In this document: in pieces, positions 3,485-29,718 of the stretch
Position numbering within the stretch: position 1 is the first letter of the stretch
Layout: each line of letters starts with the position of its first letter
From: a virus
Direction: 5' to 3' (one strand)
IMG/VR virus record: IMGVR_UViG_3300042450_001318
Location: 1-31,740 of that record
Length of the DNA stretch: 31,740 bases
Notes under the pieces: model-generated
The model's database searches: none
Seen by the model: the letters and a program-made list of their open reading frames with translations, nothing else
What the model was told of the DNA's origin: nothing
Translations under genes and position numbers: made by a program

Positions 3485-6400
3485 ATGCCAATAAATGTCT
3501 GCTGTTGTGACCAACAAGTTGTACAGCTAGGTTGTGGTGGACCTATAATGGTTAAGGCAGGCTGGTATCATTTTCTCGTATTAAGTTCTGGAGGTTGCGT
3601 ACACACCTTTACTGGCAGTCCTCAACTAGCCTATACGGAAACTGTTCTGGAATCAGAAAAGCAATACTGGAAACCTAGCTGGGGAAATGATGAGCTTGTT
3701 GGCGAAGACGGAATTGATTTCTCTATATGGCCAACTCAAGGTTCATTTTCAAAAAGATCAAAAGCACTAGACGGCGATAGACGATACCATCCCTGGACTT
3801 ACGCTGACTGCTCCTACAATATTGCCGTTGACGGATTTGACAAAGAGTGTCCAAGAAAAACCATAACAGCATTCGACAGTAAAATCGAAACACACGGAAT
3901 AATTTTTCATAATTATCCTGCGGATTTTGAAGATCTTCTTCCTCTTGGATCTTGTGACTACCAAAGTGAGGGTGCTTGTAATCAAAAATGTACCTATAAG
4001 CCTATCGGGTTTCACTCTTACAGATTTATTGATTCTGATTCAGTAGTAGCTAGACCATGGTATCTAGAACCATATTTAAAATTTGATGGAACCAGCGAAG
4101 GAACAGGAGTTACTCTGTACGAAGCGGAAGGAAAGGGTCTTCCCAAACTAATAAATGCATACAGTCCTGCTCAACTTGCTCCTAGTGGTCATCCCCTAGA
4201 AACACCAAAAATTCTTCTTGGAGTAAAAGATATTGAGTGCGGAGCATACCACAACATTGTTCGTTTATCTAACGACTCTATAATGGCATGGGGTCTGAAC
4301 AGTATGGGACAGTGCAATGTTCCAGACTCGTTACTTCCCGACGAACTACGTCCAGCAGGCGTTAAGCCTCACCCAAACAGACAAAATATATGCAGCCTTC
4401 ACGCTGGATTTTCCACAAGTGCTGTAATGTTTAATGACGGAACCGTGTTGTGTTGGGGTGATCCAGAAGTTGCAGACAAAGTAAACAAATGGAAACACCT
4501 AAGAACATCGCTAATCAAAACCTCTGAGAGTGGAAGTCAGCAATGTTGTATTGGAGCTCCTTCTATTGGATTCCCAGAGTGTCTTCCTGGAACAGATTGC
4601 AGTAAACCAGAAAACTGGGTTCCAGAAAATAAATATAATTTAGGAAGATATAATGCAAACAATGACTGGGAAGGTTACTGGCATAACGGAGCAAGTCCAG
4701 CCTATCCGCATTTCGATCTGGGTGTGGAAACTGAATACGTGTATCCTGTAAACTTTGGTCATGTTGTTAAATTATCAAGCGAACAACTAGGCAGTCATGC
4801 CAGTAGTTCTGCGGGTCTTGCTGGTCCTACAATTCCTGGAGACACAGATGAAGGTGGTGTTGATGTTCCCCAATACTCTTATCGATACGCACAGAAGTGG
4901 AGTTCGCATGATGATAAGTCTCGTTGTGCAGCAAAGGGAAAGATTAAAACGGATTTTGCTGTTGGCATGTTACGAACTGGTCAGATACTAACCACACGAA
5001 CAGAAAACTCTGTAGATAAATCCGAAAAACATTGTCGTGATTGCAGTCAAGATGTTCATCTTACCAGATCAGACGGAACCATTGTTTCTTCTAATCAAGG
5101 ACCAGCAACCAATTTGGATACTTGGTGGTATTGTACAAACGGAACAAATACTGATGAATCTGATCAAAACTGTAGAAATGGTAAAATTACTATAATTGAT
5201 TGTGACAAGTTATTAACTGTTGACACTAGTATTGTTGTGAAATGTAATAATTTTGTATGCGAATCTAAAAAACGATGGTACTTTGAGGAACTAACCACCT
5301 GTGATGCTTCTACAGAATGTGGTGGTCCGAATGGAAACATACTACCAAATGATGCCAAAGATCCTAATAAAAATTTATGTCTATCAGTAAATAGACCAGA
5401 AGGAATTGGTTGTTTTAGTTCCACCGATAATGAACGTGGCTACGATCCAAATTGGCAAGGCAAGACTTTATACTTATCTGCTGGACACGTAAGAGGATAC
5501 GGTAGAAGCAACCAACCAGTTAATAACGGAACACATCCTGTCTGGAATCTTCAACAAGCAGATTATGGATGGGCCAGTCTTCCTACACCTCAAGACAGAT
5601 TTAAACCACAAGCTAAACCGTTAAATGTACATCCCTTGTGTCGTGCTGCTGGAACATATATTTCTGCTTGTGTTAATTATTTTGATATTAATGCAGAATG
5701 TGGTAGTGAATGTCCAGAATTAGATTATGAAAAGAGAGGAGGAAACAGAGCTGCTACTCCTGGATTAAATGGTCAAGGAGATTTGCCTGGAAGTGCTGGA
5801 TTTTTTCATTACCCTGAACACATGCATTCGTTTGGTTGTGTTGCTGGAACTAATACAGTTACTTGGTTAGGACCACAAACATTACTTAGCAAAACACTAA
5901 CTGATTTACTTTTCTTTCCAAATTCTAATGCTACTAATACTGATGCGAATGATGATATAACAAGAACAGACAAATCTAGCTCAGCAATGCTTTCGTACAC
6001 ACAAAATGTTTTTAGCAATAGTTATAATAGCGATGTTTGTCCTGGGTGTGATCACGTTGGATCGCATAATGCACAAGAATATAATGTGTGCAGTCTTTCT
6101 CACGGAGTAATTTATGGTAATAGTGATCCAGATCCAGACGGAATGATAAATCCGTTAAGTGGAAAGTGTAATTGTGTTCCCCTATCATCATGCAGCCCAT
6201 TTACATTATTAGAGACAATAACTAGAGAAGCAGCAATCAAACCGTCTAGACCTTGGGGTCCTTGGCAGATTGCGCAAAATCTTGGAGTTGTTCCTAGTCC
6301 TCCCATCATGGAATACGGTAATTTTTACGATAAGTCTAGAGGAACACCACTCTGGACTCTAGGAATGCCAACAATACTATGGGAAAGGAAAGACACTGAG

Positions 6401-9400
6401 AAGAGAGAAGATGACGGAAGAATACAAGACACGCAAAATTTCTTTGTAACAAATAATGGTAAAGAAGATATAATTAATTATGCAGAAGCTTTGTCTTCTC
6501 CAGAATGGTTTACTGCATACGATATAAAATTAGATTGGCCAGAAATACTTAGAAAACCAGCAGGTAGTTCACGCATGTGGTCTGTTCCGTGTGATTGTAA
6601 TAAATATGTTTGTTGGGCTGATGATGAAGTAAATGGGCAAGGAACAGGTCTTGGTGGAGACGGTCTTGGTTGTGCTGCTGGAGGCAATTTAGCAGGAGAT
6701 CAACAAGATACTTGTAGCGGAACATATTATTATGACTGTTCAAAACCTCCTAAAAAATATAATCCAAACGGAAAGGCTTTACAAAAAACAGGATCTGGGT
6801 TTACTCTATATTCTAATTTTTCTAATGCTTTATCTGGATCATACACTTTATTACAAGCATTTTCTCCAGATAAAACTAAAGTAGTTACAATTTCTAATGC
6901 AATAACTGGATTTTTAAAAATAGAACTTTGGAATATTAGCGATAATCATAATCCTTTAAATGTATTAATAAAAAGTATTAGATTAGATGGTATTGGTCTT
7001 TCAGATCCTATTAGTTTAAATTGGATGAAAGATAATACTCTTGTTGTTGGTATGGCAGGAGGAAACGGAATTATTAATTATGGTGAAATTACTGGCATTT
7101 TAACACTAACATCTAATAATCCTGTTATTTCATATAAACAAATAAAATTTTTGACAAATAAATGGTCAGCAACTAATATTAGTTTATGGTCAGAAGAATC
7201 ATCTCTACAAATTAATGTCGACAATTCTGTAATTCTTAATCGATGTGCTGTAGATGATCGTTCTGGTAAAAATTACATAGCAATACACCAAAAATCTACC
7301 AGTGATCCAAAAATAGATTTAGTTGTTTCCGTTTATCAACCTTGTAATGATGGTTTATGTCCTGACGGAACTATTAATATTCCTAATTCTGTCTATAATA
7401 AAAAATTATACAAATATTATATAAAGTCTGGTAATGTTTCTATATACGAAGCTTTAACACCTGCAAGAAAAAATGCATTAGATTTTATTAGAGGCATTAC
7501 CACATCAGAAGTACCTGATACGCAACCAGACGCTTGCACAAATTCAACCAATTCATTGACACCATGTTGGGATCAGACTAATAATGGTGTTGATTGTATT
7601 TCAACAGACAACGGTGGTATTCATCCTGGTAATTTTGATCCAAATACACCAGTAGACCCTGAAGCAGAGTCATGCCCTTGGGTATTTGACGAACCAGCAA
7701 ACTGGGTTTATGGTGGTCATGTAGATCGTATAGCATTTACTGGAACTGGAGATTTGGTATTAAATTCAAATGATTTATACACAACAGTATATTGGGGGTT
7801 TGTAAATAACATACCTAATCAAACTCCTGAAACAGAAAAATTATTATTAAAATTAAATTATAATCGTTATGCCCAAACTGCAACATACGAAACAGCTCCA
7901 GTGCCTGTTGCTGATGAAACGACAAATACAACTACTAGTGAAGCCATGTATAAAGCGGAAAGTTTGTTGCAAGGCTTACGCAATAATCACATATACGTTA
8001 ATGATGATTCCAGTAAAGTTGGTATTGTTGGATGGTGGGATGGCGATCCTATTACTGGTTTTATAGATCCATCTTTACTTACAGATTATTGGTATTCTAC
8101 TGCTGTGGCAACATATGATCTTCAGTGGGGACCAGTTTCTAACTCTAAATATAATCCTGGCAATCAAAACGAGTTAATACTAGTTACTGGTGATGGATTC
8201 GGAAATAGTAAGACTGGTACAGGAAACGAACAAGTACCAATTAATAGTTGGCATCAGATTCAAGAAAGTTTTGTAAAATTTGATAATAATTTAAAGTATG
8301 CTATTATTGGTAAATTCCGAGATAATGATACAAGATTAGTTCAAGAATTTAATACTGTAAATATATCAGAAAAAACGTTTAAACGTTATGGTAATGTGTT
8401 TGGTGATGATTATACTTCAAGACCTAATTATTCTAGTTTTGGTGCATTATCAAATAATACATTTTTCATAACAACAAGTGCTGTAAACCGATCACCAACC
8501 GATGCTACCAAAATACCTAACGGCATAATAATTGACGGAAATATAGATTATACTACTAATTCTCTTGCATTATGGAATCGTCGTATATGCGGGTCAAGAT
8601 CTTGCCTTGGTTCTGCTCCTTTTAAGGGTTGGACTGGAGGAGGAAATTTTGGTTGTGCTGACAGCTTTGGTTTTGATAACTCTCCTGGAAATACTTACAA
8701 TTCTGAAAATGTTGCAATTGGTTTTGATATTAGAGATCCCACAAAGGGCGTGAATGATTTGTTGTGTCCAAATTGTGACAAAACAAGTGATGACGGATAC
8801 AGTAGATGGGGAATGACTCATCCAACTATATCTTTTGCAAGTGGCAGAAGTTGGAGTGTTCATTTAAGAAATCTTCCTTGGTACAGAGATACTTCTAGAG
8901 GATCAATCTTCTACAAAAAGCATCATTGTGAAGAAACTGATGAATACGGTCTTTCTGAATATTTTGATTCTGGTGGCTTCACCAAACAAAAATCAATGAA
9001 TCATGTTACAAAAAATTATAATGATATTGTGATATGGGTAACTGGTAATATGATTGATCCTTGTCCTCCTTGGCCTTTAGCTACATGGAATCCAGATAAT
9101 GGCATTGATGAGATTGACATAGAACTTCCTCGACCATCTGAAAATATAGAAAACATAATAGTTGGTTCTTCTAACATTGGTCCAGACGGTTTAACGTATG
9201 ACGAAGGAACATCATTAAGTATGTCGATACGTCATTGCGGAAAATACCCATCCTGGGTTCCTGTTCCAAACATCTCTGCTACTGCTACAGATAAAATGCC
9301 ACAACGATCCTATAAGGGGGTTTGGAGAAATGGAACTTGGAATTCTGGATTATACGGAATTACTAACGGATTCGTTAATGGTTTATCTGTTACTGGTGCA

Positions 9401-9778
9401 GGTATATCAGCACAAAACATTTTAGATATAATTAAAATAACTAATGCTGTTGGCGTTACTGCGGCATACCAATCTAGTTGTGTTACTTGCGAAAAAGCTT
9501 GGACCGAACCATTACCTCCATCTTCCGATATTGTTGGTAAAAAATTCTTCCGACAAGGAGTTGGTATGGCTTTTGATACACAAAATTCAGATGATTCGAG
9601 TTGTAATAATCTAAAATTAGGAGCTTGCTGTAAGCAAGATCTTTTTGGAATAACCCAATGTTTCTATGGCACAGATATAGCCTGCGCTTATACTGGCGGA
9701 GACGTACTAATGTCTTGGGGGTTCACTGCAGGAGTATTTCACGAAAATATGAAATGTGACCAAATTACTTGTATTTAA
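3485..9778 (+). CDS. Giant virion-type protein with RCC1 and WD-like repeats
   Basis: 2097 residues with a good Shine-Dalgarno site (AAAAGG, eight bases before ATG) and a T4 late promoter upstream. RCC1-type blade motifs are visible near the N-terminus: AGWYHFLVLSSGG (about 25-37), CGAYHNIVRLSNDSIMAWG (about 251-269, followed by LNSMGQCNVP) and AGFSTSAVMFNDGTVLCWG (about 307-325). Around residues 1120-1150 there is a WD-repeat-like stretch (FSPDKTKVVT, then LWNIS), and around 1410-1425 DRIAFTGTGDLVL. The protein is rich in Trp, Cys, Gly and Asn, with many C-x(2-4)-C pairs; the C-terminus from about 2045 (GACC...QC...AC...GG...KC...C) resembles Cys-rich secreted-protein repeats. I infer a large surface or tail-fibre/adhesin protein of beta-propellers, held by disulfides or metal. 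Coding from about 6770 to 8500 is markedly more AT-rich, which suggests a mosaic origin. Confidence 0.75.
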   Translation: MPINVCCCDQQVVQLGCGGPIMVKAGWYHFLVLSSGGCVHTFTGSPQLAYTETVLESEKQYWKPSWGNDELVGEDGIDFSIWPTQGSFSKRSKALDGDRRYHPWTYADCSYNIAVDGFDKECPRKTITAFDSKIETHGIIFHNYPADFEDLLPLGSCDYQSEGACNQKCTYKPIGFHSYRFIDSDSVVARPWYLEPYLKFDGTSEGTGVTLYEAEGKGLPKLINAYSPAQLAPSGHPLETPKILLGVKDIECGAYHNIVRLSNDSIMAWGLNSMGQCNVPDSLLPDELRPAGVKPHPNRQNICSLHAGFSTSAVMFNDGTVLCWGDPEVADKVNKWKHLRTSLIKTSESGSQQCCIGAPSIGFPECLPGTDCSKPENWVPENKYNLGRYNANNDWEGYWHNGASPAYPHFDLGVETEYVYPVNFGHVVKLSSEQLGSHASSSAGLAGPTIPGDTDEGGVDVPQYSYRYAQKWSSHDDKSRCAAKGKIKTDFAVGMLRTGQILTTRTENSVDKSEKHCRDCSQDVHLTRSDGTIVSSNQGPATNLDTWWYCTNGTNTDESDQNCRNGKITIIDCDKLLTVDTSIVVKCNNFVCESKKRWYFEELTTCDASTECGGPNGNILPNDAKDPNKNLCLSVNRPEGIGCFSSTDNERGYDPNWQGKTLYLSAGHVRGYGRSNQPVNNGTHPVWNLQQADYGWASLPTPQDRFKPQAKPLNVHPLCRAAGTYISACVNYFDINAECGSECPELDYEKRGGNRAATPGLNGQGDLPGSAGFFHYPEHMHSFGCVAGTNTVTWLGPQTLLSKTLTDLLFFPNSNATNTDANDDITRTDKSSSAMLSYTQNVFSNSYNSDVCPGCDHVGSHNAQEYNVCSLSHGVIYGNSDPDPDGMINPLSGKCNCVPLSSCSPFTLLETITREAAIKPSRPWGPWQIAQNLGVVPSPPIMEYGNFYDKSRGTPLWTLGMPTILWERKDTEKREDDGRIQDTQNFFVTNNGKEDIINYAEALSSPEWFTAYDIKLDWPEILRKPAGSSRMWSVPCDCNKYVCWADDEVNGQGTGLGGDGLGCAAGGNLAGDQQDTCSGTYYYDCSKPPKKYNPNGKALQKTGSGFTLYSNFSNALSGSYTLLQAFSPDKTKVVTISNAITGFLKIELWNISDNHNPLNVLIKSIRLDGIGLSDPISLNWMKDNTLVVGMAGGNGIINYGEITGILTLTSNNPVISYKQIKFLTNKWSATNISLWSEESSLQINVDNSVILNRCAVDDRSGKNYIAIHQKSTSDPKIDLVVSVYQPCNDGLCPDGTINIPNSVYNKKLYKYYIKSGNVSIYEALTPARKNALDFIRGITTSEVPDTQPDACTNSTNSLTPCWDQTNNGVDCISTDNGGIHPGNFDPNTPVDPEAESCPWVFDEPANWVYGGHVDRIAFTGTGDLVLNSNDLYTTVYWGFVNNIPNQTPETEKLLLKLNYNRYAQTATYETAPVPVADETTNTTTSEAMYKAESLLQGLRNNHIYVNDDSSKVGIVGWWDGDPITGFIDPSLLTDYWYSTAVATYDLQWGPVSNSKYNPGNQNELILVTGDGFGNSKTGTGNEQVPINSWHQIQESFVKFDNNLKYAIIGKFRDNDTRLVQEFNTVNISEKTFKRYGNVFGDDYTSRPNYSSFGALSNNTFFITTSAVNRSPTDATKIPNGIIIDGNIDYTTNSLALWNRRICGSRSCLGSAPFKGWTGGGNFGCADSFGFDNSPGNTYNSENVAIGFDIRDPTKGVNDLLCPNCDKTSDDGYSRWGMTHPTISFASGRSWSVHLRNLPWYRDTSRGSIFYKKHHCEETDEYGLSEYFDSGGFTKQKSMNHVTKNYNDIVIWVTGNMIDPCPPWPLATWNPDNGIDEIDIELPRPSENIENIIVGSSNIGPDGLTYDEGTSLSMSIRHCGKYPSWVPVPNISATATDKMPQRSYKGVWRNGTWNSGLYGITNGFVNGLSVTGAGISAQNILDIIKITNAVGVTAAYQSSCVTCEKAWTEPLPPSSDIVGKKFFRQGVGMAFDTQNSDDSSCNNLKLGACCKQDLFGITQCFYGTDIACAYTGGDVLMSWGFTAGVFHENMKCDQITCI

Positions 9779-15115: not shown

Positions 15116-15547
15116 TTATGCTCGGAATAAATTATCTTCTGTTAATATCTTAAAAACCCAACCTCGTTCTTTGCAGAATATTTCAGCTGCTTTCCATTTG
15201 CATGTGTTAGTTTCGTATGTGATACACTCGTTTAGATGTGCTCTTTTGTTCTTTTTTGGTGTTGGTTTCACAGTTTGCTTTTTAGGTTTGATTTCTACTA
15301 CGTAAGTTTCTATTATTCCATTTTTTATTGCTTCAAACAAGAAATCTGGATAATAATGGTGCATTTGTTTGTCTATAGTAGATAGGTAAGGAATTTTTAA
15401 TTCTTCACTACACCAGCGAATAATCTGTTCGTTTTGATCTAAATATTTACAGAATTTACGTTCCCAATTTGATCTACAAATAATATTGTCGGCATTGCCT
15501 ACATATTTGGTCGTAAATTGTGGTTTATATTTAGTCTTGTATGCCAT
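15116..15547 (-). CDS. 4: Head completion protein gp4 (PD-(D/E)XK type)
   Basis: 143 residues, close to T4 gp4 (150). Alignment by eye with T4 gp4 is strong: KYVGNADNIICRSNWE, WCSEELKIPYLS, then VEIKPKKQT, KKNKR and KAAEIFCKERGW. The catalytic arrangement of a PD-(D/E)XK nuclease is visible: E29 in NWE, P67-D68 in YYPDFLF, and E85-x-K87 in VVEIKPKK. T4 gp4 (with gp50/gp65 naming in related phages) completes the packaged head so that tails can join. The start at 15547 is chosen over upstream ATGs because conserved sequence begins there. It leads the minus-strand operon and is divergent from the baseplate operon with only 24 bases between start codons, TATA-rich on both strands. Confidence 0.93.
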   Translation of the reverse strand: MAYKTKYKPQFTTKYVGNADNIICRSNWERKFCKYLDQNEQIIRWCSEELKIPYLSTIDKQMHHYYPDFLFEAIKNGIIETYVVEIKPKKQTVKPTPKKNKRAHLNECITYETNTCKWKAAEIFCKERGWVFKILTEDNLFRA

Positions 15548-15571
15548 AATTGCAACTATATATCTATACAA

Positions 15572-16369
15572 ATGGCAATAGTATACCAATTTCCTCCAGA
15601 TGGAGATCCTTCCTCCTTCCAAAACGACATCCCAGTATGGATGTATTTTTATTGTGCTGATTATAGTACTTTTTCTCAAAATCGAACAAGAAACCATATT
15701 TTGGGTAATGCTAATTTTGAATTAAGAATACCGTATCCACAACAGCATAATACCTTGAATTCACAAACATATCAAACTGGTGGCAGCTTAAATGTTAGAG
15801 CAATAGAAACAGGAAATATTGGTGAATTGATTGGCGCACAAATTAGTGCTACTGCAGACATGGCTAAAAGTTTTTTTAGTGGTGGTGGTTTATTAAGATT
15901 TGACCATTTTGAAAGCATTCTTTCTCCAGGAGCAAGAAGAACACATAATTTTAATATTAATTTTGTTGCAAAAAATACTCAAGAAGCAACGGTAATGAAT
16001 ACAATTGCTTTAGCATTCCAGACAAACGTATTTCCAATAGCAACAAATAATTTTTTAACCATGAAACACCCCCCATTATGGTATTTCAAAGCAGTTGTAG
16101 TAGATCAAGCAATTGATTTTTCTATTCAAAGTGCTTGGGACGGTCAGCCTCTACCATCAGTTTTGACTAAAGTAGACATTAATCGATCTCCTATTTTAAA
16201 TACTCCCTTTATTGGATCTGATTTTAGACCAGTAGCATTAAATATCAAAATGTCGTTTATAGAACTAGAACCCGCCCTTCAATCTGGAGGAGGTTTATTC
16301 AACATAATAAGTCGTTCAGAAAGATTGGCAGGAATTGGGCAAGCAGGATTTAGGAATCCAGGCGAATAA
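15572..16369 (+). CDS. Baseplate tail-tube cap/initiator, gp48/gp54-like
   Basis: 265 residues. It starts at MAIVYQFPPD (15572), only 24 bases from the divergent gp4 start. Residues 40-90 form a Gly/Ala-rich beta-helical region. The segment GARRTHNFNINFVAKNTQEA, then a helix ending FQTNVFP and then HPPLWYFKAV, is typical of the tube-like proteins gp48/gp54 in aquatic T4-like phages, which join the baseplate hub to the tube. The C-terminal LNIKMSFIELEP followed by a Gly-rich tail also matches that group. The exact one of the two cannot be settled. It leads the baseplate operon, with three bases to gp53. Confidence 0.75.
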   Translation: MAIVYQFPPDGDPSSFQNDIPVWMYFYCADYSTFSQNRTRNHILGNANFELRIPYPQQHNTLNSQTYQTGGSLNVRAIETGNIGELIGAQISATADMAKSFFSGGGLLRFDHFESILSPGARRTHNFNINFVAKNTQEATVMNTIALAFQTNVFPIATNNFLTMKHPPLWYFKAVVVDQAIDFSIQSAWDGQPLPSVLTKVDINRSPILNTPFIGSDFRPVALNIKMSFIELEPALQSGGGLFNIISRSERLAGIGQAGFRNPGE

Positions 16370-16372
16370 TAC

Positions 16373-18169
16373 ATGTTTGAATACTTTCCTAAAATCCAGT
16401 ATAATTTTGACGGCATTACTCAAACAGTAACAAATTTGTTCAAATCAGTTAAGGTTACAGTAGATGATCAAAATACCACATTAACAAAAACTACAATTCC
16501 TGGAGAAAGACCAGACCAATTATCATCAAGATTATATAATAGAACTGACTATTTTTGGTCTTTATTTCTTCTCAATGGCATCAGAAATCCACTGCGAGAA
16601 TGGGCTCAATCGCAAGACAGCTACACTAAACAAATTGAAAGTGAATATGATGGTAAGTATTACCAATTTGCAAACACTTCTAATTATCTTCCTGGAATCA
16701 CTACTTATCAAGATGTCAGTAAAATTGATCCATATCTAGGAGTAGATTTATCTGGTATTAGTGTTGGTGATTTAATAATTTACGAAACAGGATCTGGACC
16801 ATTTTCTATTAAATGTTTGGGTGCTGGAGGAGTTACTTCTTCTAATAGTTGCGGTAGTCCTCAATTCGGTCAAAGTTTAATTCCTGATAATTTTGATAAA
16901 CAAAATAGTGTAGTTCAAGTATCTGCAGGAGATTATTTTACTGCGTGTTTAGATTCTAATGGTTACATATATGCATGGGGAAATGTTCCTTCGTTTAATT
17001 CTTCTCAATTTACTGAGAATGATCGATTATATTCTTCCAACATAGGCGGATATTCGTTTATTGATGCTAGTCAAGATAATCTAATAGCTATTTTTAATGG
17101 TGATTTGGTTTGTTTTGGTGGTTGCACTGCATTTAATACTAATTATTCTGGTGAAACTGGGATTGTTAAAACCTCTTGGACAACTAGTGGTGTTAGTGGT
17201 GGTGTTGGAATTAAAGTTGATGGTACTGTGGTTAATTTTGGATTAAGTGGTCCAACGGGTGTAACATTATCTAATATTGATTGTGGATATAATTTTTGTG
17301 TTGGTGTGTTAGGAACTACCAGAGGAATTACCGTTTGGGGTGATAATACGAATAACCAAAAATCAATTCCAGGCATTACAGGTGTTACTGCTATTGCTGC
17401 TGGTTTTGGTCACGCACTAGCATTAACAGATTCTGGTGATGCTTATGCTTGGGGGTTAAACACCGATGGTCAGGCTACACTTCCGTCTTCTAAATATTCT
17501 TTAGTTTCCGCAGGTTTTAAACACTCTGCAGGATTAAAACTAAACGGAAGTTTAGAATTATGGGGCAATATAACAACATATAATGCTGATTGTACTGGTT
17601 CACAAACTACAACTCCAGCAATAGGAATGACTGGTTCTTTTTCTAGATTAGCTTCTGGAAAAGATCATATAGTCACAAAAGGATCAGGAACAAATTTTAA
17701 ATATACTGGTGTTGTTAGTTCTGTTGATTCTTTATACAAAAGAATTTTTGTAAAGACTTATCAATTTACGGAAAATACTTCAATATTTTTAGACAACTCA
17801 TCGGGTAGTATTGTGTCATTTTGGAGACTAAATGATAAAGGAAAATACGAACAAATCAAAACTATACAACATCAATTATTAACAATTGATACGTATTTGA
17901 ATTCTACACTATACATTCAACAAAATGGTATGGTGTTAAACGTAACAGATGACAATATTTGGCAATCAGTTTATTTGGCTGATTACAAAACACCAAATAA
18001 TAATGAATTTTTTATAACACCTCTAAAACAATTATTAGATGTAGATCTATATAATAAAACGCAAATAGATTATTTAAATATCGATAAAGTTAATCTATTA
18101 ACAGGAAAAATAAATAATTTATTAGTTACTGATGATGTTATTAATATAAAAACAAGTGAATTGATATGA
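16373..18169 (+). CDS. 53: Baseplate wedge protein gp53 with inserted RCC1 propeller
   Basis: 598 residues against 196 in T4 gp53. The N-terminus is gp53-type: MFEYFPKIQYNFDG, then RPDQLSSRLYNRTDYFWSLFLLNG with IRNPLREW (about 50-80). At about 138-150 a small beta-barrel starts (LSGISVGDLIIYETGSG) and resumes at about 440 (FKYTGVVSSVDSLYKRIFVKT). Between them lie RCC1-type blades: AGDYFTACLDSNGYIYAWG, GIKVDGTVVNFG, CGYNFCVGVL...ITVWGD, AGFGHALALTDSGDAYAWG with LNTDGQATLP, AGFKHSAGLKLNGSLELWG, and ASGKDHIVTK. That is roughly a complete propeller of six to seven blades inserted in a loop. gp53 links neighbouring wedges; the propeller would project as an added surface domain. The stop overlaps the next start (ATGA). 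Confidence 0.9.
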   Translation: MFEYFPKIQYNFDGITQTVTNLFKSVKVTVDDQNTTLTKTTIPGERPDQLSSRLYNRTDYFWSLFLLNGIRNPLREWAQSQDSYTKQIESEYDGKYYQFANTSNYLPGITTYQDVSKIDPYLGVDLSGISVGDLIIYETGSGPFSIKCLGAGGVTSSNSCGSPQFGQSLIPDNFDKQNSVVQVSAGDYFTACLDSNGYIYAWGNVPSFNSSQFTENDRLYSSNIGGYSFIDASQDNLIAIFNGDLVCFGGCTAFNTNYSGETGIVKTSWTTSGVSGGVGIKVDGTVVNFGLSGPTGVTLSNIDCGYNFCVGVLGTTRGITVWGDNTNNQKSIPGITGVTAIAAGFGHALALTDSGDAYAWGLNTDGQATLPSSKYSLVSAGFKHSAGLKLNGSLELWGNITTYNADCTGSQTTTPAIGMTGSFSRLASGKDHIVTKGSGTNFKYTGVVSSVDSLYKRIFVKTYQFTENTSIFLDNSSGSIVSFWRLNDKGKYEQIKTIQHQLLTIDTYLNSTLYIQQNGMVLNVTDDNIWQSVYLADYKTPNNNEFFITPLKQLLDVDLYNKTQIDYLNIDKVNLLTGKINNLLVTDDVINIKTSELI

Positions 18170-20292
18170 TTAAACAAACAGAAATTAATTTTCCAAATAT
18201 TACTGTTAATAATGTAGGTATTGTTACTAATACTGGTAATAATTTCGAAATATTTCCTAGAAGTAATTTTGCAAACAATGAATCGTTTTTATTAGATCAA
18301 ATTACAATAACCGAAGATATGTTTTCTGAAGCTATATTTGGGTCTATAAGTTTTTTCGATTCAACGTATATTACAGATCAATTAAATTTGAACAGTACTC
18401 ATGACAATGTTTATTTTACCTTTAACGGAAAGGCATATAATTATAGAGTATTGGATATAAGTGTAAGTTCTGATCTTGCTAGTAAGCAAGTAAGTGGACC
18501 TATTGGTACTGTAAACAAAGTAACTATAAGATTCTCATCAGAATTATTTGTTAATAAAAATTTTGATACTGCATTTGAGTCGCATTATATTGGAAAAATC
18601 TCAAAAAATGCAGAATCCAAACCATCTTCTATACTTCCAGCAGGATTTGATCCAGCTGAATTCAAGAAACACGAAGCTTCTATGTCTGGTTTTGTTCAGG
18701 ATATGATGGCAAAATTTGCACCAAACTTAAAATTAGAAGCAGATAACACATACAATGATATTTGGTTAAAAACTGAAAATTTTTTCTATCCTTTATTTAA
18801 AATTGCAACTGGCTTAAGAATTTCTCAGTTGATGAATTATATTTGTGAATATGCTTGTTTTATTGATAATCCTAAAGCTGTTAATTTTTTCTTTTGGGAA
18901 GATTTAAATAAATGGAATTTTAAATGTGTTGAATCTTTATTAAAGGATAAAAATAATTTTAAAGGAACTTATAATCTAGCAGGAGATCGTGGTCAGAGTG
19001 AAAATTATCAAGACACAATAATTTCAATGGAAGTTATTAGTGATACTGCTCTTCTTAAATTGTACGATTCTGGTGCAGCATTTAGCGAATATATTAGAAT
19101 AATTCCAAATTGGGGTAACGCATGGCGTGGTTTTATGGATAATTCTATTGGTCTTACTGGAGCTACTGCTGTATCTGGTAGTCTTTTGCAAGAACAAATA
19201 ACTTATAATTATAAAACTGATGGTAATAAATGGTTGCGAATTGCGTCTAATCCTCCATTCAATAAACAATCATTAAATGATTTTTTTATTAAAATAGATT
19301 ACTCAGCTATTAGAATTTCTGATTTAAATTATGGATTTTACAGCAATGCAAATAACGCAAAAAATCTTCCTTGGTGGAATCACTATGATTTTAGTTCTTC
19401 TCATGGTTATTTGGGTGATAAATTAGCCTTATCTAAAGAAAATGGTGGTTATGATATTCGTAATAAACAAGATTTGCTGGATAAACATCCAGGAGCTAAA
19501 CAAGTTTCTAGAATTGAATCTGAATATTGGCAAGCGCAATACGATTTTTCTGAATTACCTGGAGCATTTCTTCGAACAATTTATAAAGATATTAAATGGG
19601 AATTAACAAAAGCTAGAACTGATTATGCTAATGCCAAAAGAATTAAAATGCAATGGGATGTGTATCGTAATACTATTTGTTGTGATCAGTCTACTCTAAG
19701 TGGTAGTTTTTTCGCAGTCCTTACTAAGGCAGTCCCTGTAACTGACGGTCCACCTAGTGGAGTTTATCGATACGAATGGAAACAGGTAGAATTATGGCCT
19801 AGATCAGAAGTTGATAAAATAACAGACACATCTTATGAAATTATAGAAGCCGAAGGAAATATATCCTTTTGGTTTGTTTTTATTAGTTCACCAAAACATG
19901 CTAAAGGGAAAAGTGCTTATAATTTAAACGAACTTTTAAATTCATTTATTCCTTCTAAATTAGAAAATGGAAATCAAACTTTAACTATAGGTCCTGGAAT
20001 CTCTGTTCCTGCTAATACACTAAGTTACGAAGACAGACAACTAACAACTTCATATCCAAAACATTTTAAAATGATGCCTGTTGGAGAAAATTTAATAGCT
20101 ATAAAGAACAACTGTAGTCCCGACCAAACATATTATGGTGGCAGAATTGTGCAATTACAAGCAGTATCTTCTGATGTTATGCAGAATATTAAAGGATTTA
20201 CTGCAGGAATTAATAAGCAAAAATCTAATATGTACTTATTTGATGTAGTGAATGCTCATGATGGTATCTGTGGAAAATGTTCTGGCGATTAA
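18166..20292 (+). CDS. Baseplate hub protein, gp27-like
   Basis: 708 residues. The N-terminal part resembles hub domains: LLDQITITEDMFSEAIFGSI (about 43-62), then FNGKAYNYRVLDISV, then KQVSGPIGTVNKVTIRFSS with a membrane-free beta layout. Residues around 220-260 carry the pattern LRISQLMNYICEYA...NFFFWEDLNKWNFKCVESLL. This is the hub signature of a helix that positions the domain, followed by a FF(F/W)E(D/T)...(F)F.+...L strand pair. The C-terminus has a second beta region and ends in a small Cys cluster (DGICGKCSG). Hub proteins form the central trimer to which gp5 and the tube attach in T4. It is longer than T4 gp27 (391), so it may include gp5-type or other domains. The start overlaps the gp53 stop (ATGA). 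Confidence 0.65.
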   Translation: MIKQTEINFPNITVNNVGIVTNTGNNFEIFPRSNFANNESFLLDQITITEDMFSEAIFGSISFFDSTYITDQLNLNSTHDNVYFTFNGKAYNYRVLDISVSSDLASKQVSGPIGTVNKVTIRFSSELFVNKNFDTAFESHYIGKISKNAESKPSSILPAGFDPAEFKKHEASMSGFVQDMMAKFAPNLKLEADNTYNDIWLKTENFFYPLFKIATGLRISQLMNYICEYACFIDNPKAVNFFFWEDLNKWNFKCVESLLKDKNNFKGTYNLAGDRGQSENYQDTIISMEVISDTALLKLYDSGAAFSEYIRIIPNWGNAWRGFMDNSIGLTGATAVSGSLLQEQITYNYKTDGNKWLRIASNPPFNKQSLNDFFIKIDYSAIRISDLNYGFYSNANNAKNLPWWNHYDFSSSHGYLGDKLALSKENGGYDIRNKQDLLDKHPGAKQVSRIESEYWQAQYDFSELPGAFLRTIYKDIKWELTKARTDYANAKRIKMQWDVYRNTICCDQSTLSGSFFAVLTKAVPVTDGPPSGVYRYEWKQVELWPRSEVDKITDTSYEIIEAEGNISFWFVFISSPKHAKGKSAYNLNELLNSFIPSKLENGNQTLTIGPGISVPANTLSYEDRQLTTSYPKHFKMMPVGENLIAIKNNCSPDQTYYGGRIVQLQAVSSDVMQNIKGFTAGINKQKSNMYLFDVVNAHDGICGKCSGD

Positions 20293-20305
20293 TAGGAATA
20301 TAAAA

Positions 20306-21244
20306 ATGAGTAAAATAATTAAAATTTCTAATTTTTCAAAAGACGATTATGGTCCAATTGGTTCTGGAACAGAAAAAGCTTATGATGTCGTTTTAAATAC
20401 TAATTCATTAGGATATTTTGAAATTGATGAATTAGGACCTTGTATGAATCCTAATGGATACGTTTCTAACGAGGAATGTCCCGAAAGCGATCCCCTTTGT
20501 AATTGCCCTAAAAATTTAAAACCTGGTGTAAAAGAGCCAACTAAAGAAGAATTACGTGATTTAAAATTTAAAACTAATGAATGTAATTTAATAAAAAAGA
20601 ATCTTTCTGTAGATTGGTTTGGAATTGATTATTCTAATCCAGCATGTTCTTATAATTGCGCAGATATACTAGGCGTTACTGGTTCTACTTCAGGATTTAC
20701 TGGTATCAGCAAGGGCATTAGCACTGAAAATACTTATAATATAGATGCTCCTGTCCGAAAATCATACGGATTAACTGGTGCTTCCTCAGGAGGAACAGCA
20801 TCCTTTCCATTCGATGGATTAACTGGTGCCTCTGGTGCCTCTGGTGCTTCTGGTGCTTCTGGATCAACAGAAGAAAATGGCACCAAAATATCATACTTTC
20901 CTCGTTATTTAGAATATTCTAAAACAAATGCTACCTTCTGGAATACTCCTAAAGAGACACCACTCTACCGACAAGCTCAAACTGCTTTACTAACCTATCA
21001 ACGTGTAAAAATTGTTGTGAATGGTGATTTCGATATAAAGCCAGGTAATCTAGTAAATATAAACATGCCAACACCAGAAATGAAAAATATATCTGAAACT
21101 AGATTTGCGGGAAGGTGGATGGTTTATAAGAATGAACACGTAATTACTAGTCAAAAACACTCCATGATATTATATCTAATGAGGGACGGAAATTATCACG
21201 ATCCTGATTATCAATACTCAATAAATACTAGTAAAAGAGGTTAA
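20306..21244 (+). CDS. Second hub-type protein with Gly-Ala-Ser repeat
   Basis: 312 residues from the ATG at 20306, which has AGGAATATAAAA upstream. Residues 40-80 are Cys-rich (LGPCMNP...EECPESDPLCNCPK). Residues 120-195 contain G-x-T/G-A-S collagen-like motifs, including four tandem GAS units. The C-terminal 110 residues (RVKIVVNGDFDIKPGNLVNI...ETRFAGRWMVYKNEHVI, SMILYLMRDGNY) look like the last beta domain of hub proteins: G.(F/Y).+..GdlV.+..P......(F/L).G.(W/Y).+....H.I. In many phages this domain is part of a single hub polypeptide, so it may complete the hub together with the preceding gene. Function inferred only from fold pattern and position. Confidence 0.6.
   Translation: MSKIIKISNFSKDDYGPIGSGTEKAYDVVLNTNSLGYFEIDELGPCMNPNGYVSNEECPESDPLCNCPKNLKPGVKEPTKEELRDLKFKTNECNLIKKNLSVDWFGIDYSNPACSYNCADILGVTGSTSGFTGISKGISTENTYNIDAPVRKSYGLTGASSGGTASFPFDGLTGASGASGASGASGSTEENGTKISYFPRYLEYSKTNATFWNTPKETPLYRQAQTALLTYQRVKIVVNGDFDIKPGNLVNINMPTPEMKNISETRFAGRWMVYKNEHVITSQKHSMILYLMRDGNYHDPDYQYSINTSKRG
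20825..20860 (+). repeat. Four tandem 9-base units encoding Gly-Ala-Ser
   Basis: Units GGTGCCTCT, GGTGCCTCT, GGTGCTTCT, GGTGCTTCT at 20825-20860, in frame with the hub-type gene. Variation is only at a synonymous site. Units of this size can expand or contract by slippage. Confidence 0.9.
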
Positions 21245-21247
21245 TTT

Positions 21248-21622
21248 ATGGCAACTACAAAATTTACTGATATAGATTTTTTACTTACTAAAAACGAATT
21301 AACTAATGATATTAGTGTTAAATATGATGCCAATGCTATTTCTCAATCTATTAAAAATATAATTTTAACCACTCAAGGAGAAAAATTATTTTCTCGAAAT
21401 TTTGGAGGAAATGCGTATAGTTTAGTATTCAATAGTCCTTCCAGAACAGACATAGAAAGTAAACGATTATCCTTTGCGGCTGCTATAGCTTCATATGAAC
21501 CAAGAGCAGACATACAAACCATAGATATTAGGGATTCAGGAGAAGGAAATTGGATTATAACTGTAGAATATCGTACAATTTATGACCAAAACACAATAAA
21601 AGTAGTAGTAATACCATTATAA
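21248..21622 (+). CDS. 25: Baseplate wedge protein gp25 (GPW_gp25 family)
   Basis: 124 residues against 132 in T4. Typical family features: an N-terminal FTDIDFLLTKN segment, SIKNIILTTQGEKLFSRNFG (about 33-52; matches the conserved helix ending in LxT..GE+.f...FG), and a final beta hairpin region with ITVEYRTIYDQNT. gp25 has a lysozyme-like fold and starts sheath assembly at the baseplate; related proteins occur in type VI secretion systems. It is followed by gp6 with a 12-base gap, as in other T4-like baseplate operons. Confidence 0.95.
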   Translation: MATTKFTDIDFLLTKNELTNDISVKYDANAISQSIKNIILTTQGEKLFSRNFGGNAYSLVFNSPSRTDIESKRLSFAAAIASYEPRADIQTIDIRDSGEGNWIITVEYRTIYDQNTIKVVVIPL

Positions 21623-21634
21623 TAAAGTAACCAC

Positions 21635-23347
21635 ATGGCAAACCCTAAAATAAACATATCATCTCTCACTTTTGATGACATTAAAACTTCATTAAAGGCA
21701 TTTTTAAATGATGCAACACAAAATCCTCAATTTATTGGTTACGACTTTTCTGGATCTGCATTAAATACTCTATTAGACGTGTTTGCTTATAACACATTAT
21801 TTTATTCATTTTATAGCAACATGATTGCTAATGAAACGTTTTTAAGTACTGCTAGTTTAGAAAATAGTATTGTGTCTTTAGTCAAACCGTTAGGTTATTT
21901 GGTTCCAGGAAAAACATCAGCTAAAATTGAATTAAATGTGTCACCTTCTGCAGGAACAGTACAAGTTGCTCCATATTTAACTGCGTTTGTTGCTTTTACT
22001 CCATCAGGAAATTCTTATCTATATTATTCACTAGACCAAATCAGTGTAGCCTCAGAAACAGATTTGGTTCTTTATGAAGCATCATCTGTTGTTAATAATT
22101 TAGAAATTGGCGTTGATACTGCAGAACAAAAGGTTTTCTTAGGTAATACTAATATTGATATTAATACGTTAACTGTAAAAGTTAACGAAGTTGTTTGGAC
22201 TAGACACAACACAACTCAAGTTGATTCTGGTTCGGAAGGAAATATTTATTTTTTAGACAGAACAAGTGCTGGATTTTATATAATATTTGGTAAAAGATCT
22301 ATTAATGATTATCAATCAACTTTTGGTAAAAATATCGTTGATACCGATGTTGTTACTGTGTCTTATCTGATTCCTTCTGGAGCTGCAGCAAATAATACAA
22401 ATTCAGTAATTAATAGTGATTTTGTTGTTAATAGTGTAACGACATCTAGTGGTGGTACTGATGGTGCTGATTTAGATTTAATTAAATTCTTTGCTCCTAA
22501 AATGTTTGCTTCTAATGATAGAGCAGTAACACGAGACGATTATTACGGAATATTACTAAATTCCGACACTCTTCCCGCTAACATTACTTCTCAGGATCAG
22601 TTAAGTATTTGGGGCGGAGAAGAAGCAGATCCTCCAACTTATGGAAGAGTATTTGTGTCTTTTGCTGACGAAACATTAATAAAAACTACACCATCGGTAC
22701 AAAAATGTATTACTCTGTTGAATTCTAAGAGTGTAGTCACAATCATTCCAGAATATATACAATCTCAAATAATAACTGCAAATATGAATATATTAGTTAG
22801 TGGAGCCAGAACCTCTCAAATAACTCTAATCCAGAACACTATTAATGATTTATATAATACCACTAAAACCTTTAACGACAGTATTAAAATTGGAGACATA
22901 AAACAAACTGTGTTTGGTTTATATCCAAATATAACTAGCATATCATTAAATAGTATTTCTTTAGTATTGAGTGTTTTTGGTTCAAGTGTATCAAAAAATG
23001 TATATTTTAAAAATGAATTTCTTCCAGTAACTAGCAGATCTTCAACAGGATCTGCAGTATATTCTGATTCGTTTTCCTACAATGGATCTAGTATTATTCT
23101 TAAAGATAAACCAACTATTTTTGATTCTAGTGGTTTTGGTCTAGAGGGCAAGCTTCACGGTTATGTGGGATCTACTGATATTGGAAGTTTAGGATTTGTT
23201 AATTATACAAAAGGTTATATCACTATTAACGCAGATGTTTTGCCAAAAGATATAAAAACTTCAATAATAGTAACTCCAAGATATCCAGATAATATTATAA
23301 TTAAAAACGAATTCATATTAGTAGCTAACACAACAATAAGTACATAA
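21635..23347 (+). CDS. 6: Baseplate wedge protein gp6 (baseplate J-like)
   Basis: 570 residues (T4 gp6 has 660). The N-terminal FDDIKTSLKAFLNDATQNPQ, then DFSGSALNTLLDVFAYNT and ETFLSTASLENSI...LGYLVPG is the recognised gp6/J-like start, in which helical segments run through the wedge. The middle contains DGADLDLIKFFAPKMFASNDRAV...DDYYGIL (about 275-305), another conserved baseplate-J feature. The C-terminus is beta-rich. Six copies per baseplate (as dimers) form the inner ring that changes shape on contraction. It sits between gp25 and the gp7-like gene, as expected. Confidence 0.95.
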   Translation: MANPKINISSLTFDDIKTSLKAFLNDATQNPQFIGYDFSGSALNTLLDVFAYNTLFYSFYSNMIANETFLSTASLENSIVSLVKPLGYLVPGKTSAKIELNVSPSAGTVQVAPYLTAFVAFTPSGNSYLYYSLDQISVASETDLVLYEASSVVNNLEIGVDTAEQKVFLGNTNIDINTLTVKVNEVVWTRHNTTQVDSGSEGNIYFLDRTSAGFYIIFGKRSINDYQSTFGKNIVDTDVVTVSYLIPSGAAANNTNSVINSDFVVNSVTTSSGGTDGADLDLIKFFAPKMFASNDRAVTRDDYYGILLNSDTLPANITSQDQLSIWGGEEADPPTYGRVFVSFADETLIKTTPSVQKCITLLNSKSVVTIIPEYIQSQIITANMNILVSGARTSQITLIQNTINDLYNTTKTFNDSIKIGDIKQTVFGLYPNITSISLNSISLVLSVFGSSVSKNVYFKNEFLPVTSRSSTGSAVYSDSFSYNGSSIILKDKPTIFDSSGFGLEGKLHGYVGSTDIGSLGFVNYTKGYITINADVLPKDIKTSIIVTPRYPDNIIIKNEFILVANTTIST

Positions 23348-23351
23348 TATT

Positions 23352-24473
23352 ATGATTTTGTTTTTTAATAAAAATATTCCTAATAAAACAAATCAAACTA
23401 ATACTGAAGTATCTAGTATAGGGGAAGTAGATTCGGAAACAAAATTTGGTTCTGTGGCACAACCAATTGCTCAGTTTTTTACTCCATCACAACCCCTTCC
23501 AAGAACATGTAAATATCCAATAAATATTAGCGAATTATTTCCTTATTGGTTGCAAAAAGATAGTGGTGATTCTGCTAGTCTAATCGCATTAACAGATGCA
23601 TATTATCAATGGTTAAACTGCTATACTAAAGACATTAATGAAGTAAGTTTTTTTAGATTAGAAGATCTTACTGATCTAGAACAAATGCCAGGAGATTATG
23701 TAAAATATCTGGCTAGTACTTATTTAAATTCTTTACCTTCTGAATACATTAATAGTCCAGGATATACTGATGGTATAGTAGACGAAAAAGATATAAAAAA
23801 TTTAATAGATAATGTAAAAATTAATCTATATTCTCGTAAAGGAACTGATGAGAGTTTTAAATTAGTTATAAATGAACTATTTGGTGTGGAACCAGAACGA
23901 ATATCAGTTTCTTATCCTAAAAAATATGTAATGCGGTTAAATAGTGGTACATTTGATTGGATGCAAACTGAAACTGAGTTTCAGGTTGATAATCCTACAA
24001 CATTTAACCCACAAATGACTGCTAGTTATTTGAATTTTTCCGTATTATATGATGCAAACGATATATGGCAAGATTATTCGTATGTGGTTAATGTGTCTGG
24101 ATTATCTCCCGCAAACTACGAAACTGTGGTTCGTCCTCTACTCCATCCAGCAGGAACTAGTGATTTCTTTCAAACCAGACAAGATATTTTTGATAATGTC
24201 GAAGATGATATTGTAGCAAAAACTTTTGAAACACCAATAATAATAAATTATCGAGGATATACTTTAGGTTCTTTTGATTCTCTTGCTGTCTGCTATCCTG
24301 GATTCACTTCTGCTCCAACATACACATTTCCTTCATGGGATGAAGAAATTTCTGTTAAATATTTTCCTGGGATGACATTTGGTATGATAAATATAAAGGA
24401 CTTTGTGTTATTATCTCCATTGGAAGGATTTACTTTTCCTAACGAAACTAGAAGTATTACTGTTTGCCCTTAA
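23352..24473 (+). CDS. Baseplate wedge protein, gp7-like (short form)
   Basis: 373 residues. The order after gp6 and the sequence pattern (KDINEVSFFRLEDLTDLEQMP, YVKYLASTYLN, NLYSRKGTDESFKLVINELFG, then PKKYVMRLNSG) match the start of gp7-type wedge proteins and tail protein I (gpI) of P2-like phages: an N-terminal helical region and a K(G)T...S...(F)..LFG helix followed by strands. T4 gp7 has 1032 residues, so this is much shorter. It may be a reduced gp7, or the missing parts may be replaced by other proteins. It ends with a beta-rich domain. The start is four bases after the gp6 stop. Confidence 0.65.
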   Translation: MILFFNKNIPNKTNQTNTEVSSIGEVDSETKFGSVAQPIAQFFTPSQPLPRTCKYPINISELFPYWLQKDSGDSASLIALTDAYYQWLNCYTKDINEVSFFRLEDLTDLEQMPGDYVKYLASTYLNSLPSEYINSPGYTDGIVDEKDIKNLIDNVKINLYSRKGTDESFKLVINELFGVEPERISVSYPKKYVMRLNSGTFDWMQTETEFQVDNPTTFNPQMTASYLNFSVLYDANDIWQDYSYVVNVSGLSPANYETVVRPLLHPAGTSDFFQTRQDIFDNVEDDIVAKTFETPIIINYRGYTLGSFDSLAVCYPGFTSAPTYTFPSWDEEISVKYFPGMTFGMINIKDFVLLSPLEGFTFPNETRSITVCP

Positions 24474-24489
24474 TTAACAAAGAAGAATC

Positions 24490-25860
24490 ATGCCACAAAT
24501 TAATTTATCTAACCTCACGTTAAACAAAGTACCTAAAGAATTATTTCTAGTATTAGGTGGAAATCGTACTGCTATTGATGCTGGTTTTGAACCCAACGCA
24601 GATTCTTCTTTTGCTCAAAGAATTCCAGAAAACAAAAGAGCTTTAGTAGCATCAAATAATCCGTGGCAAGCTGGGAAAAAATATGTTCCGTGGACTCCAG
24701 GAATAACAGATAATTATTATGTTTTAAATCAGAGTAATAATATTGTATATTTGTGCGTATCCAGTAATACAAATAATCGAGTAGACGGATCCGTCATTAC
24801 TTCAGCAGTGATACCAAACCACGAAACTCCCGCAGTACAAAGTTATTCTGATGGTTATTCTTGGTTGCCTTTGTTTAAACTGGATCCTAGTCAATTGATT
24901 TTTCTTAATGATACCGACCTTCCTCTATATGATATTAATGTTAAACAGGAATATAGTACATTTGCAGAAAAATACGAACCTCTTTGTGGTTCTGGAGTAA
25001 CTAGTTTTGGGTGTTGTTGTTTGTATTTTAAAAATACTACTTCAGACGAACTTACTGGCGAAGTTTACAATAAGGGTGATGTATCTAACGAAACTATATT
25101 TTCGGATTGTTACGAATGCCAAAAATTAGCTGATATTCTAGACAGACAACCAATATTTTTAAACGGATATACTGCTGGGTCAATCACATCCAGTAGCACT
25201 GGAGAAAATCCTCTTTGTGCGGCTACCACCATCATTTCCACTCTTGCTGAAACCCTAGAAGCAAACAAATATGATTTTGTTCTTGGAAGTAGCAACGAAT
25301 TTGCTTTGAGTCTATTGAGTAATTTCACAAACACTGCTGGTGTTATGAAAGCCACCATTGATCTAACTAATTTAACAACACAACAAAAGACTGTTTCCAC
25401 ACCAAATCCAATAGTAAACGTAATTGATCCGATTGGAACTGGGGCTAGTGTTCAGCTCAAGACCACGCAAACTGGAGTAAATTCTTATGAAGTTTACGGG
25501 ATTGAAACTCTATCTCCTGGTCAAAATTACTTGGTTCCTGATCATTTAATTTCTGGAACTACTGCAGGCAATATACTGAATACTGTTATCGACTTATACA
25601 CATTCCCAGAAGGAATCTTTGAAAGCACTGAATTATTAGTTCCTGCAAAGAGTTATAAAATTAAGAGTAGTCTGTCGAGTACTGAAGTTAAAGCAGCTTC
25701 TGGTATTGACACCATAAACAAATACGCAATAATGGCAAATCCAGGACTAACTGGTGGTGGTCGAGCCGAATTTACTCAAAATAGTAGTGTGGTAACTAGT
25801 ATGGAATATCGTGTATTCCTTAAATTAAAATCAGCTTTTACACAATGTGGATTATTATAA
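24490..25860 (+). CDS. 8: Baseplate wedge protein gp8-like
   Basis: 456 residues (T4 gp8 has 334). The pattern NPWQAGKKYVPWT, then NYYVLNQSNNIVYLCVSSN and SDGYSWLPLFKL (about 58-137) fits gp8, where a Y.....vY.C....... segment is followed by .P....GY.W.++++++. A Cys-rich insertion follows (FGCCCLYF, about 173-180; DCYECQ, about 206-211). The C-terminal two thirds are beta-rich, with a final FLKLKSAFTQCGLL strand. gp8 dimers sit on the outer side of the wedge. The upstream AAAGAAG acts as Shine-Dalgarno. Confidence rests on operon order plus motifs. Confidence 0.75.
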   Translation: MPQINLSNLTLNKVPKELFLVLGGNRTAIDAGFEPNADSSFAQRIPENKRALVASNNPWQAGKKYVPWTPGITDNYYVLNQSNNIVYLCVSSNTNNRVDGSVITSAVIPNHETPAVQSYSDGYSWLPLFKLDPSQLIFLNDTDLPLYDINVKQEYSTFAEKYEPLCGSGVTSFGCCCLYFKNTTSDELTGEVYNKGDVSNETIFSDCYECQKLADILDRQPIFLNGYTAGSITSSSTGENPLCAATTIISTLAETLEANKYDFVLGSSNEFALSLLSNFTNTAGVMKATIDLTNLTTQQKTVSTPNPIVNVIDPIGTGASVQLKTTQTGVNSYEVYGIETLSPGQNYLVPDHLISGTTAGNILNTVIDLYTFPEGIFESTELLVPAKSYKIKSSLSSTEVKAASGIDTINKYAIMANPGLTGGGRAEFTQNSSVVTSMEYRVFLKLKSAFTQCGLL

Positions 25861-25870
25861 GGATTATTAA

Positions 25871-26278
25871 ATGGCAGAACAAACCCCATACATACCAAGA
25901 AATCTAAACACGTCACCTACAAATTATGGTACTGTGAGTACTACCAGAAATGTATTTCTTGGTGGTTATAATGTGTTTTCAACGGTAAGACGGTCTGCTA
26001 ATGGTAAAATCTCATATACTACTGATATAGAAAGTTGCACGGTGGATGGTGTGATTGCTTATGTTACCGATAATCCAGGAGCGATAAGTTTAGGAGACAC
26101 ATGGACTATTGACGGAACAGAATATGAAGTATGGTATATAGAAGCAGCACCAGTCTTGGATAAAACTCAGGGAGAATACTTGTCGGCTGGAGTATTAGAT
26201 GTTCCTATATCAAACGGAAGCACAGGAACAGTTAAAACATACAACTTTGATATTAGTATAAATACATTTACAGGATAA
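25871..26278 (+). CDS. Small structural protein, unknown, 135 residues
   Basis: Not recognised. Probably beta-rich, with short Gly- and Thr-rich loops, an aromatic patch (WTIDGTEYEVWYIEAAP, about 78-94) and no charged N-terminus or signal. It lies between gp8 and a DUF4815-like gene with 10-12-base gaps and a good Shine-Dalgarno site (AAGGATTATTAA before ATG), so it is part of the baseplate operon. A baseplate rim or fibre-attachment role is likely from context only. Confidence 0.7.
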   Translation: MAEQTPYIPRNLNTSPTNYGTVSTTRNVFLGGYNVFSTVRRSANGKISYTTDIESCTVDGVIAYVTDNPGAISLGDTWTIDGTEYEVWYIEAAPVLDKTQGEYLSAGVLDVPISNGSTGTVKTYNFDISINTFTG

Positions 26279-26290
26279 AAATAACTACAA

Positions 26291-27025
26291 ATGAGCATAA
26301 CAGACCCATTCAAAACAGGATTTCCGCTTACCACTAATCCTTTTCGCAGCCGTATAGAATCACAGATAGATGCTGCAAAGAATTATTATGCTGTGGCATT
26401 TAGACCTGGATTTCCTCTTCAAGCTGCGGAACTCAATGAAATGCAAGAAATTTTTTATGTTCAGCAGACTTTGACTCAGACTATGGGGTCTTCCTGGTTA
26501 ACCAAGGCAATATTTGATACTGCCTCTGGTGGTTCTGTGGAAGGTCCAGGATGGGACGGATGTACACCTCTTACTCCCACTCTTATCACTAGTACTGGTA
26601 CCGCTACTTCTATATCCTTGACTGCTGGTGCTGGCTGGTACTTGGCAAAAAGCAAAAATTTTAATGGTGGTCTTGGAGTCTGGGTTTATAATGCCACAGA
26701 TCAAACCTTAATTTCAAATTTTACTACTGCTTCTCCACCATCAGCGAGCACCAACTACGGAATGATTGTGAAACCAATTACAATTTCTTGCACATCAACG
26801 GTTCCGCCAGGAACAGACGAAGACAACACCATTCAAGATCAAACTAATATTAATGTGATTAATGGTCCTTGCGGTGCTTCCCGACTACAATTAAAGGTGG
26901 TAGGATTTGGAACTAGTTCGTCTGTTGGTACAGGCGAAACCTTTCTTCCAATATGTGGTGCAGTAAACACAACAACTAACGCAGAAGTAAATTTCGTAAA
27001 CAACTTACATATTATCAGAATATAA
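26291..27025 (+). CDS. Baseplate/fibre attachment protein, DUF4815-like start
   Basis: 244 residues. The N-terminal segment AKNYYAVAFRPGFPLQAAEL followed by NEMQEIFYVQQ (about 28-60) matches the DUF4815-type start of phage structural proteins (f.pG.plQa.ELne.Q), which occurs near the baseplate-fibre junction. The rest is beta-rich with Thr/Ser/Gly repeats and a few Cys residues. Its place between gp8 and the first fibre is where T4 has gp9/gp10-type fibre connectors. Function inferred from position and motif. Confidence 0.65.
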   Translation: MSITDPFKTGFPLTTNPFRSRIESQIDAAKNYYAVAFRPGFPLQAAELNEMQEIFYVQQTLTQTMGSSWLTKAIFDTASGGSVEGPGWDGCTPLTPTLITSTGTATSISLTAGAGWYLAKSKNFNGGLGVWVYNATDQTLISNFTTASPPSASTNYGMIVKPITISCTSTVPPGTDEDNTIQDQTNINVINGPCGASRLQLKVVGFGTSSSVGTGETFLPICGAVNTTTNAEVNFVNNLHIIRI

Positions 27026-27042
27026 TAGGATATTTTTAACAA

Positions 27043-29706: not shown

Positions 29707-29718
29707 CAAGGATAATTA

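Follow-up and report, generated by a model that had tools for sequence, protein, structure and literature searches.

A seven-bladed RCC1 propeller inserted in a gp53-type baseplate wedge protein of an uncultured T4-like phage lineage

Results

A gp53-type wedge protein carries an inserted propeller

The 598-aa protein encoded at positions 16373..18169 (+ strand, ATG start) of the window, the whole 31,740-nucleotide stretch of viral DNA that was analysed, is a baseplate wedge protein of the gp53 type in which an RCC1 propeller has been inserted. The preliminary description of this DNA had proposed that such a propeller splits a loop of the small gp53 barrel, and the structural model, profile searches, synteny and comparison with empty insertion sites all agree with that proposal. 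Its distribution among homologous sequences, universal among scored members of the near clade and absent from the next clade out, marks the propeller as an insertion that became fixed and was inherited, and not as ordinary gp53 sequence.

The N-terminal part (aa 1-110; 16373..16702, +) includes a LysM-like segment at about aa 37-91; a LysM domain has also been ascribed to T4 gp53 (PMC10966104). Pfam Phage_gp53 matches residues 4-87 over its curated cut-off (E 2e-5) and PHROG 232, 'baseplate wedge subunit', matches residues 1-99 (E 6e-19). A profile built from 21 homologues matched the solved T4 gp53 structure 5hx2_F over residues 2-93 (E 1.1e-9), as well as 9f4a_AL, and its middle region matched UVR8, BLIP-II, RCC1 and phiKZ gp131. 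The RCC1_2 family (PF13540) was found in the middle of the ORF with an E-value of 8.3e-22 (76.8 bits for a cut-off of 22). Both partners thus score over cut-off in the HMM search with RCC1 and gp53 profiles that had been suggested at the outset, and at the sequence level these matches far exceed what chance would give.

The upstream neighbour is a predicted gp48-like baseplate tail tube cap gene (15518..16369, +; PHROG 230, E 3.5e-10; start codon uncertain). A head closure gene (PHROG 218), a tail tube gene (PHROG 45) and a hub gene (PHROG 150) also lie upstream of gp53, with gp32 (PHROG 224) still further away. Downstream are two tail/hub-like genes (18166-20292 and 20252-21244, +; PHROG 350), then gp25-like and gp6-like baseplate wedge genes (21248..23347, +; PHROG 261, 5e-22, and PHROG 219, 6e-69) and, at 23352-30837, further wedge and fibre-like genes. 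The Pfam, PHROG 232 and T4 gp53 profile matches, together with the gp48, hub, gp25 and gp6 genes on either side, confirm the predicted assignment of the ORF to a gp53-type wedge protein of a T4-like phage from an uncultured lineage. The gp53 proteins of T4 (PDB 5hx2/5iv5) and of Kyanoviridae (Syn1, DSL-LC03) share the homologous N-terminal LysM-like part and have the same neighbours (gp48, gp32 and other baseplate genes). In the cultured phages examined, where gp48 adjoins gp53, the latter is 182-221 aa long and has no insert, in contrast to the 598 aa and propeller of the window protein.

Fold and limits of the insert

From 6 homologues AF2 produced a low-confidence model (mean pLDDT 45), and the model computed with 21 homologues was used instead. 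For the full protein it gave a mean pLDDT of 84 and a pTM of 0.75, with most propeller blocks at 86-97. Its strands follow one another at residues 134-139, 146-437 (propeller), 442-452, 457-465, 480-486 and 492-499, the propeller standing between the two gp53 parts. Residues 143-438 superpose on residues 41-311 of BLIP-II (VIA Z 29.9, rmsd 2.1 A over 249 residues, 26% identity), the next VIA match being the C-terminal domain of phiKZ gp131 (Z 14.3); the propeller region took up these alignments, and the fold comparison therefore covers the propeller only. Foldseek matched the propeller at 1.7e-19, and its best PDB sequence matches were BLIP-II, UVR8 and RCC1.

BLIP-II is a seven-bladed propeller. 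Because the alignment spans essentially all of it, the modelled insert is a complete seven-bladed RCC1 propeller. An RCC1 propeller does occupy the region of about residues 150-440 given in the preliminary description, but its limits had to be corrected to about 143-438 (16799..17686, +). It is preceded immediately by the first barrel strand (aa 134-139; 16772..16789, +), recognised in the model and in the joined-profile alignment, and is followed by the remaining gp53 barrel (aa 439-507; 17687..17893, +; modelled strands 442-507). The C-terminal part (aa 508-598; 17894..18166, +) is the least conserved of all segments. At the joins, Gly140 and Gly439 are invariant over the 21 sequences and Gly142 nearly so. 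Model and sequences together support placement of the propeller in the loop that links strands one and two of the small barrel. Strand 146-150 closes the last blade in the model; since the first and last strands of the propeller share one blade, it can occupy a hairpin loop and leave the barrel undisturbed.

The empty site in propeller-less gp53s

Related loci were gathered with a gp32-anchored survey and with a broader alignment. Phages whose gp32 is at most 62% identical have gp53s of 267-362 aa devoid of RCC1. (RCC1 was not found in nine partial records of propeller-less phages either, a weak result since no control gave a signal.) A profile of eight propeller-less gp53s matched residues 1-97 of the propeller-bearing ones with an E-value of 2.6e-18. 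The empty site can be seen in marine relatives of this gp53, about 335 aa long, where the strands align ungapped across the join: once the propeller columns are removed, GDLIIYETGSG...GVVSSVDSLYKRIFVK aligns ungapped to DDVIVRRDITG...GIINDIDHFHHRVDVK. The barrel-only match of the joined profile to these marine proteins reached E 1.1e-4, compared with 0.046 for a control in which the join was shifted.

The post-insert barrel, with its GVVxSVDxxYKRIFVK motif, also aligns to propeller-less gp53. The earlier claim that both ends of the protein look like gp53 is supported at one end by the Pfam, PHROG 232 and T4 profile matches and, more tentatively, at the other by this barrel. Taken alone, the C-terminal piece gave a short, weak match to the propeller-less profile (E 0.0027), so that the case for the C-terminal half rests on the joined test and the model. 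The last 90 residues of the protein have no significant alignment to that profile.

A single gain in the gp32 tree

In the gp32 tree, the 12 propeller-positive rows form one clade (SH-aLRT 100) and all 15 propeller-negative rows fall outside it. The insert is present in 12/12 scored near-clade phages and 0/15 outside, a count that leaves out several gp32 relatives whose sequence ends before gp53. One change suffices, and a single gain of the propeller explains the tree. The possibility that all relatives of the group share this region as ordinary gp53 sequence thus holds in the near clade and fails in the next clade out. All additional full-length homologues that we found also have the propeller; the search that produced them used propeller-bearing queries.

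A scan of genome contigs found no relative, and tblastn with the C-terminal piece or with a distant member matched no cultured phage. When the propeller alone was the query, four phage records matched, with a gp53 annotation in none of the three whose annotation was examined. Across 50,697 phage records, tblastn detected no gp53-RCC1 fusion. No psbA or psbD match came from eight related records, mostly incomplete ones, a result compatible with a cyanobacterial host or another.

Selection, loops and cysteines

Among close relatives, dN was 0.064 for the N-terminal part, 0.114 for the propeller, 0.094 for the barrel and 0.136 for the C-terminal part, with dS at about 0.6 (rates computed without the noisy locus L006). 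The propeller, with a dN of 0.11 for a dS of 0.58, has a dN/dS near 0.2 and lies within the range of the other gp53 parts; it is under purifying selection and is conserved, not hypervariable. Its inter-blade loops are variable (entropy 1.8-2.2) except the first, residues 151-179, which adjoins the join and has an entropy of 1.34. All eight gp53 cysteines fall within the propeller, and the number of sequences that retain a given one ranges from 14 to 21 of 21; C304 and C309 occur in every one and five others in 19. These conserved residues could possibly form disulphides.

Split and enlarged gp53s in relatives

Two related records, G003 (L159:678-8796) and G009 (L160:797-9084), whose main DNA alignment shows about 70-74% identity, contain a split gp53, and a third, G010, contains the end of such a second ORF (L161:2-1243). 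ORF1 is open for 1,314 codons in G003 and 1,361 in G009 and covers gp53 positions 1 to about 330. ORF2, open for 1,394 and 1,418 codons respectively, ends with gp53 positions from about 337 to 598. The break in gp53 falls inside the propeller, and each ORF contains extra RCC1 repeats. ORF1 stops at a TAA, and the ATG of ORF2 follows 4 nt later in G003 and 2 nt later in G009. A programmed frameshift shared by both phages was considered and rejected as unlikely because the relative frames differ, ORF2 being in +1 in G003 but in -1 in G009. From their sequences, the two ORFs are most likely two adjacent genes, of about 1,350 and 1,390 codons, apparently made as separate chains of a protein grown about tenfold. 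The remainder of these incomplete records yielded no intact gp53.

We consider it fairly probable that gp53 has behaved as a modular scaffold in this lineage, with one gain of a propeller in the barrel loop, a later enlargement to about 2,700 residues in all in a sub-lineage, and a split within the propeller that leaves two polypeptides which have to come together again. What is a core subunit of about 200 residues in T4 would there be a protein of two chains, made up mostly of RCC1 and other added domains. Such split relatives could show how much rebuilding a core wedge protein tolerates before assembly fails.

Discussion

A possible role for the propeller

In T4, gp53 is present in six copies that lie around the hub in the upper dome, together with gp6 and gp25, and its binding triggers the joining of wedges (PMC3004832). 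An ancestor of the present lineage appears to have acquired one complete seven-bladed RCC1 propeller in the barrel loop of this protein. With the T4 stoichiometry, the six copies per baseplate would carry a ring of propellers, one per wedge, and these would be exposed platforms that dock or stabilise another virion protein, for example a fibre or an accessory tail protein. That the propeller is such a platform, and neither an enzyme nor the primary receptor-binding tip, is a function which we infer and to which we give about an even chance. In phage A-1(L), an extra domain inserted in the wedge protein gp31 holds the long tail fibre (PMC10966104); gp31 is a different wedge protein from gp53, and the comparison concerns the insertion and the proposed role. 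Because of the position of T4 gp53, the A-1(L) insertion and the slow evolution of the propeller, the docking or stabilising platform is favoured over direct receptor binding.

A secondary receptor- or glycan-binding module that touches the host surface once the baseplate opens seems rather unlikely. Propellers are indeed present in proteins that bind receptors or lie at the baseplate periphery, such as the phi11 RBP and the C-terminal domain of phiKZ gp131, for which receptor binding has been speculated (PMC4901313), and additional RCC1 proteins are encoded in the window and in 3/8 related records. However, direct host contact is disfavoured by the location of T4 gp53, inside the upper dome and close to the hub, and by the slow evolution of the propeller, whose dN is intermediate among gp53 parts and not raised, even though slow evolution would fit a conserved host ligand as well. 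The best-conserved inter-blade loop (151-179), adjoining the join, would moreover fit contact with the gp53 body.

A purely stabilising insert, packing on neighbouring wedge, sheath or hub proteins and perhaps locking them through its cysteines, is unlikely. Purifying selection and the eight cysteines, all in the propeller and two of them universal, would suit such a role, and phage Milano has disulphide-locked tails (PMC10811340); the variability of the inter-blade loops other than 151-179 speaks against it. A tolerated ornament with hardly any function, retained because it can fold on its own, is very improbable given the presence of the propeller in every scored clade member, its dN/dS and its conserved cysteines, although folding can accommodate an insertion in a loop, and in relatives this site has taken up about 2,000 more residues as well as a gene split.

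Comparison with known propellers

The closest solved fold to the insert is BLIP-II (PDB 1jtd, 3qhy), which has seven blades and aligns over its whole length. BLIP-II is a free beta-lactamase inhibitor, whereas the propeller described here would be a domain of a virion protein, for which no inhibitory role is implied. Nor would a phage virion protein be expected to have the Ran exchange activity of RCC1. The C-terminal domain of phiKZ gp131 (PDB 4gbf; RCC1 match, E 1e-5) is a seven-bladed phage propeller at the baseplate periphery (PMC4901313); it belongs to a separate peripheral protein, whereas that of the window is internal to the core wedge protein. Eleven RCC1-like proteins are reported for phage phAPEC6, and virions contained several of the proteins listed there under DNA condensation (PMC7247149). 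The phAPEC6 proteins are of about 30-42 kDa, and no fusion to baseplate parts is reported for them, in contrast to the RCC1 domain inside gp53.

In the titles and abstracts that we found in the open-licence literature on RCC1 or propellers and baseplates, an RCC1 domain or propeller inside gp53 was absent. Within that literature, RCC1 propellers of phage tails are known (phiKZ gp131), but one fixed inside a core wedge protein appears to be new. gp53 is one of the small conserved parts that keep T4-like wedges joined; additional domains in phages are usually found on fibres or peripheral proteins. A propeller fixed in gp53 suggests that even the core can bear a binding module of its own, and points to a place open to foreign domains.

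Other RCC1 proteins

The window encodes a second RCC1 protein of 2,097 aa (3485-9778, +), with RCC1 sequence at about residues 240-330 and no PHROG match. Several other large ORFs with RCC1 repeats, of 814 to 5,047 aa, occur in three related records (G001, G004 and G008; loci L108, L109, L105 and L111), and RCC1 domains would therefore have multiplied in this phage group. On an unrelated phage contig, a 443-aa RCC1 protein (L008:4494-5825) adjoins apparent tail-end genes.
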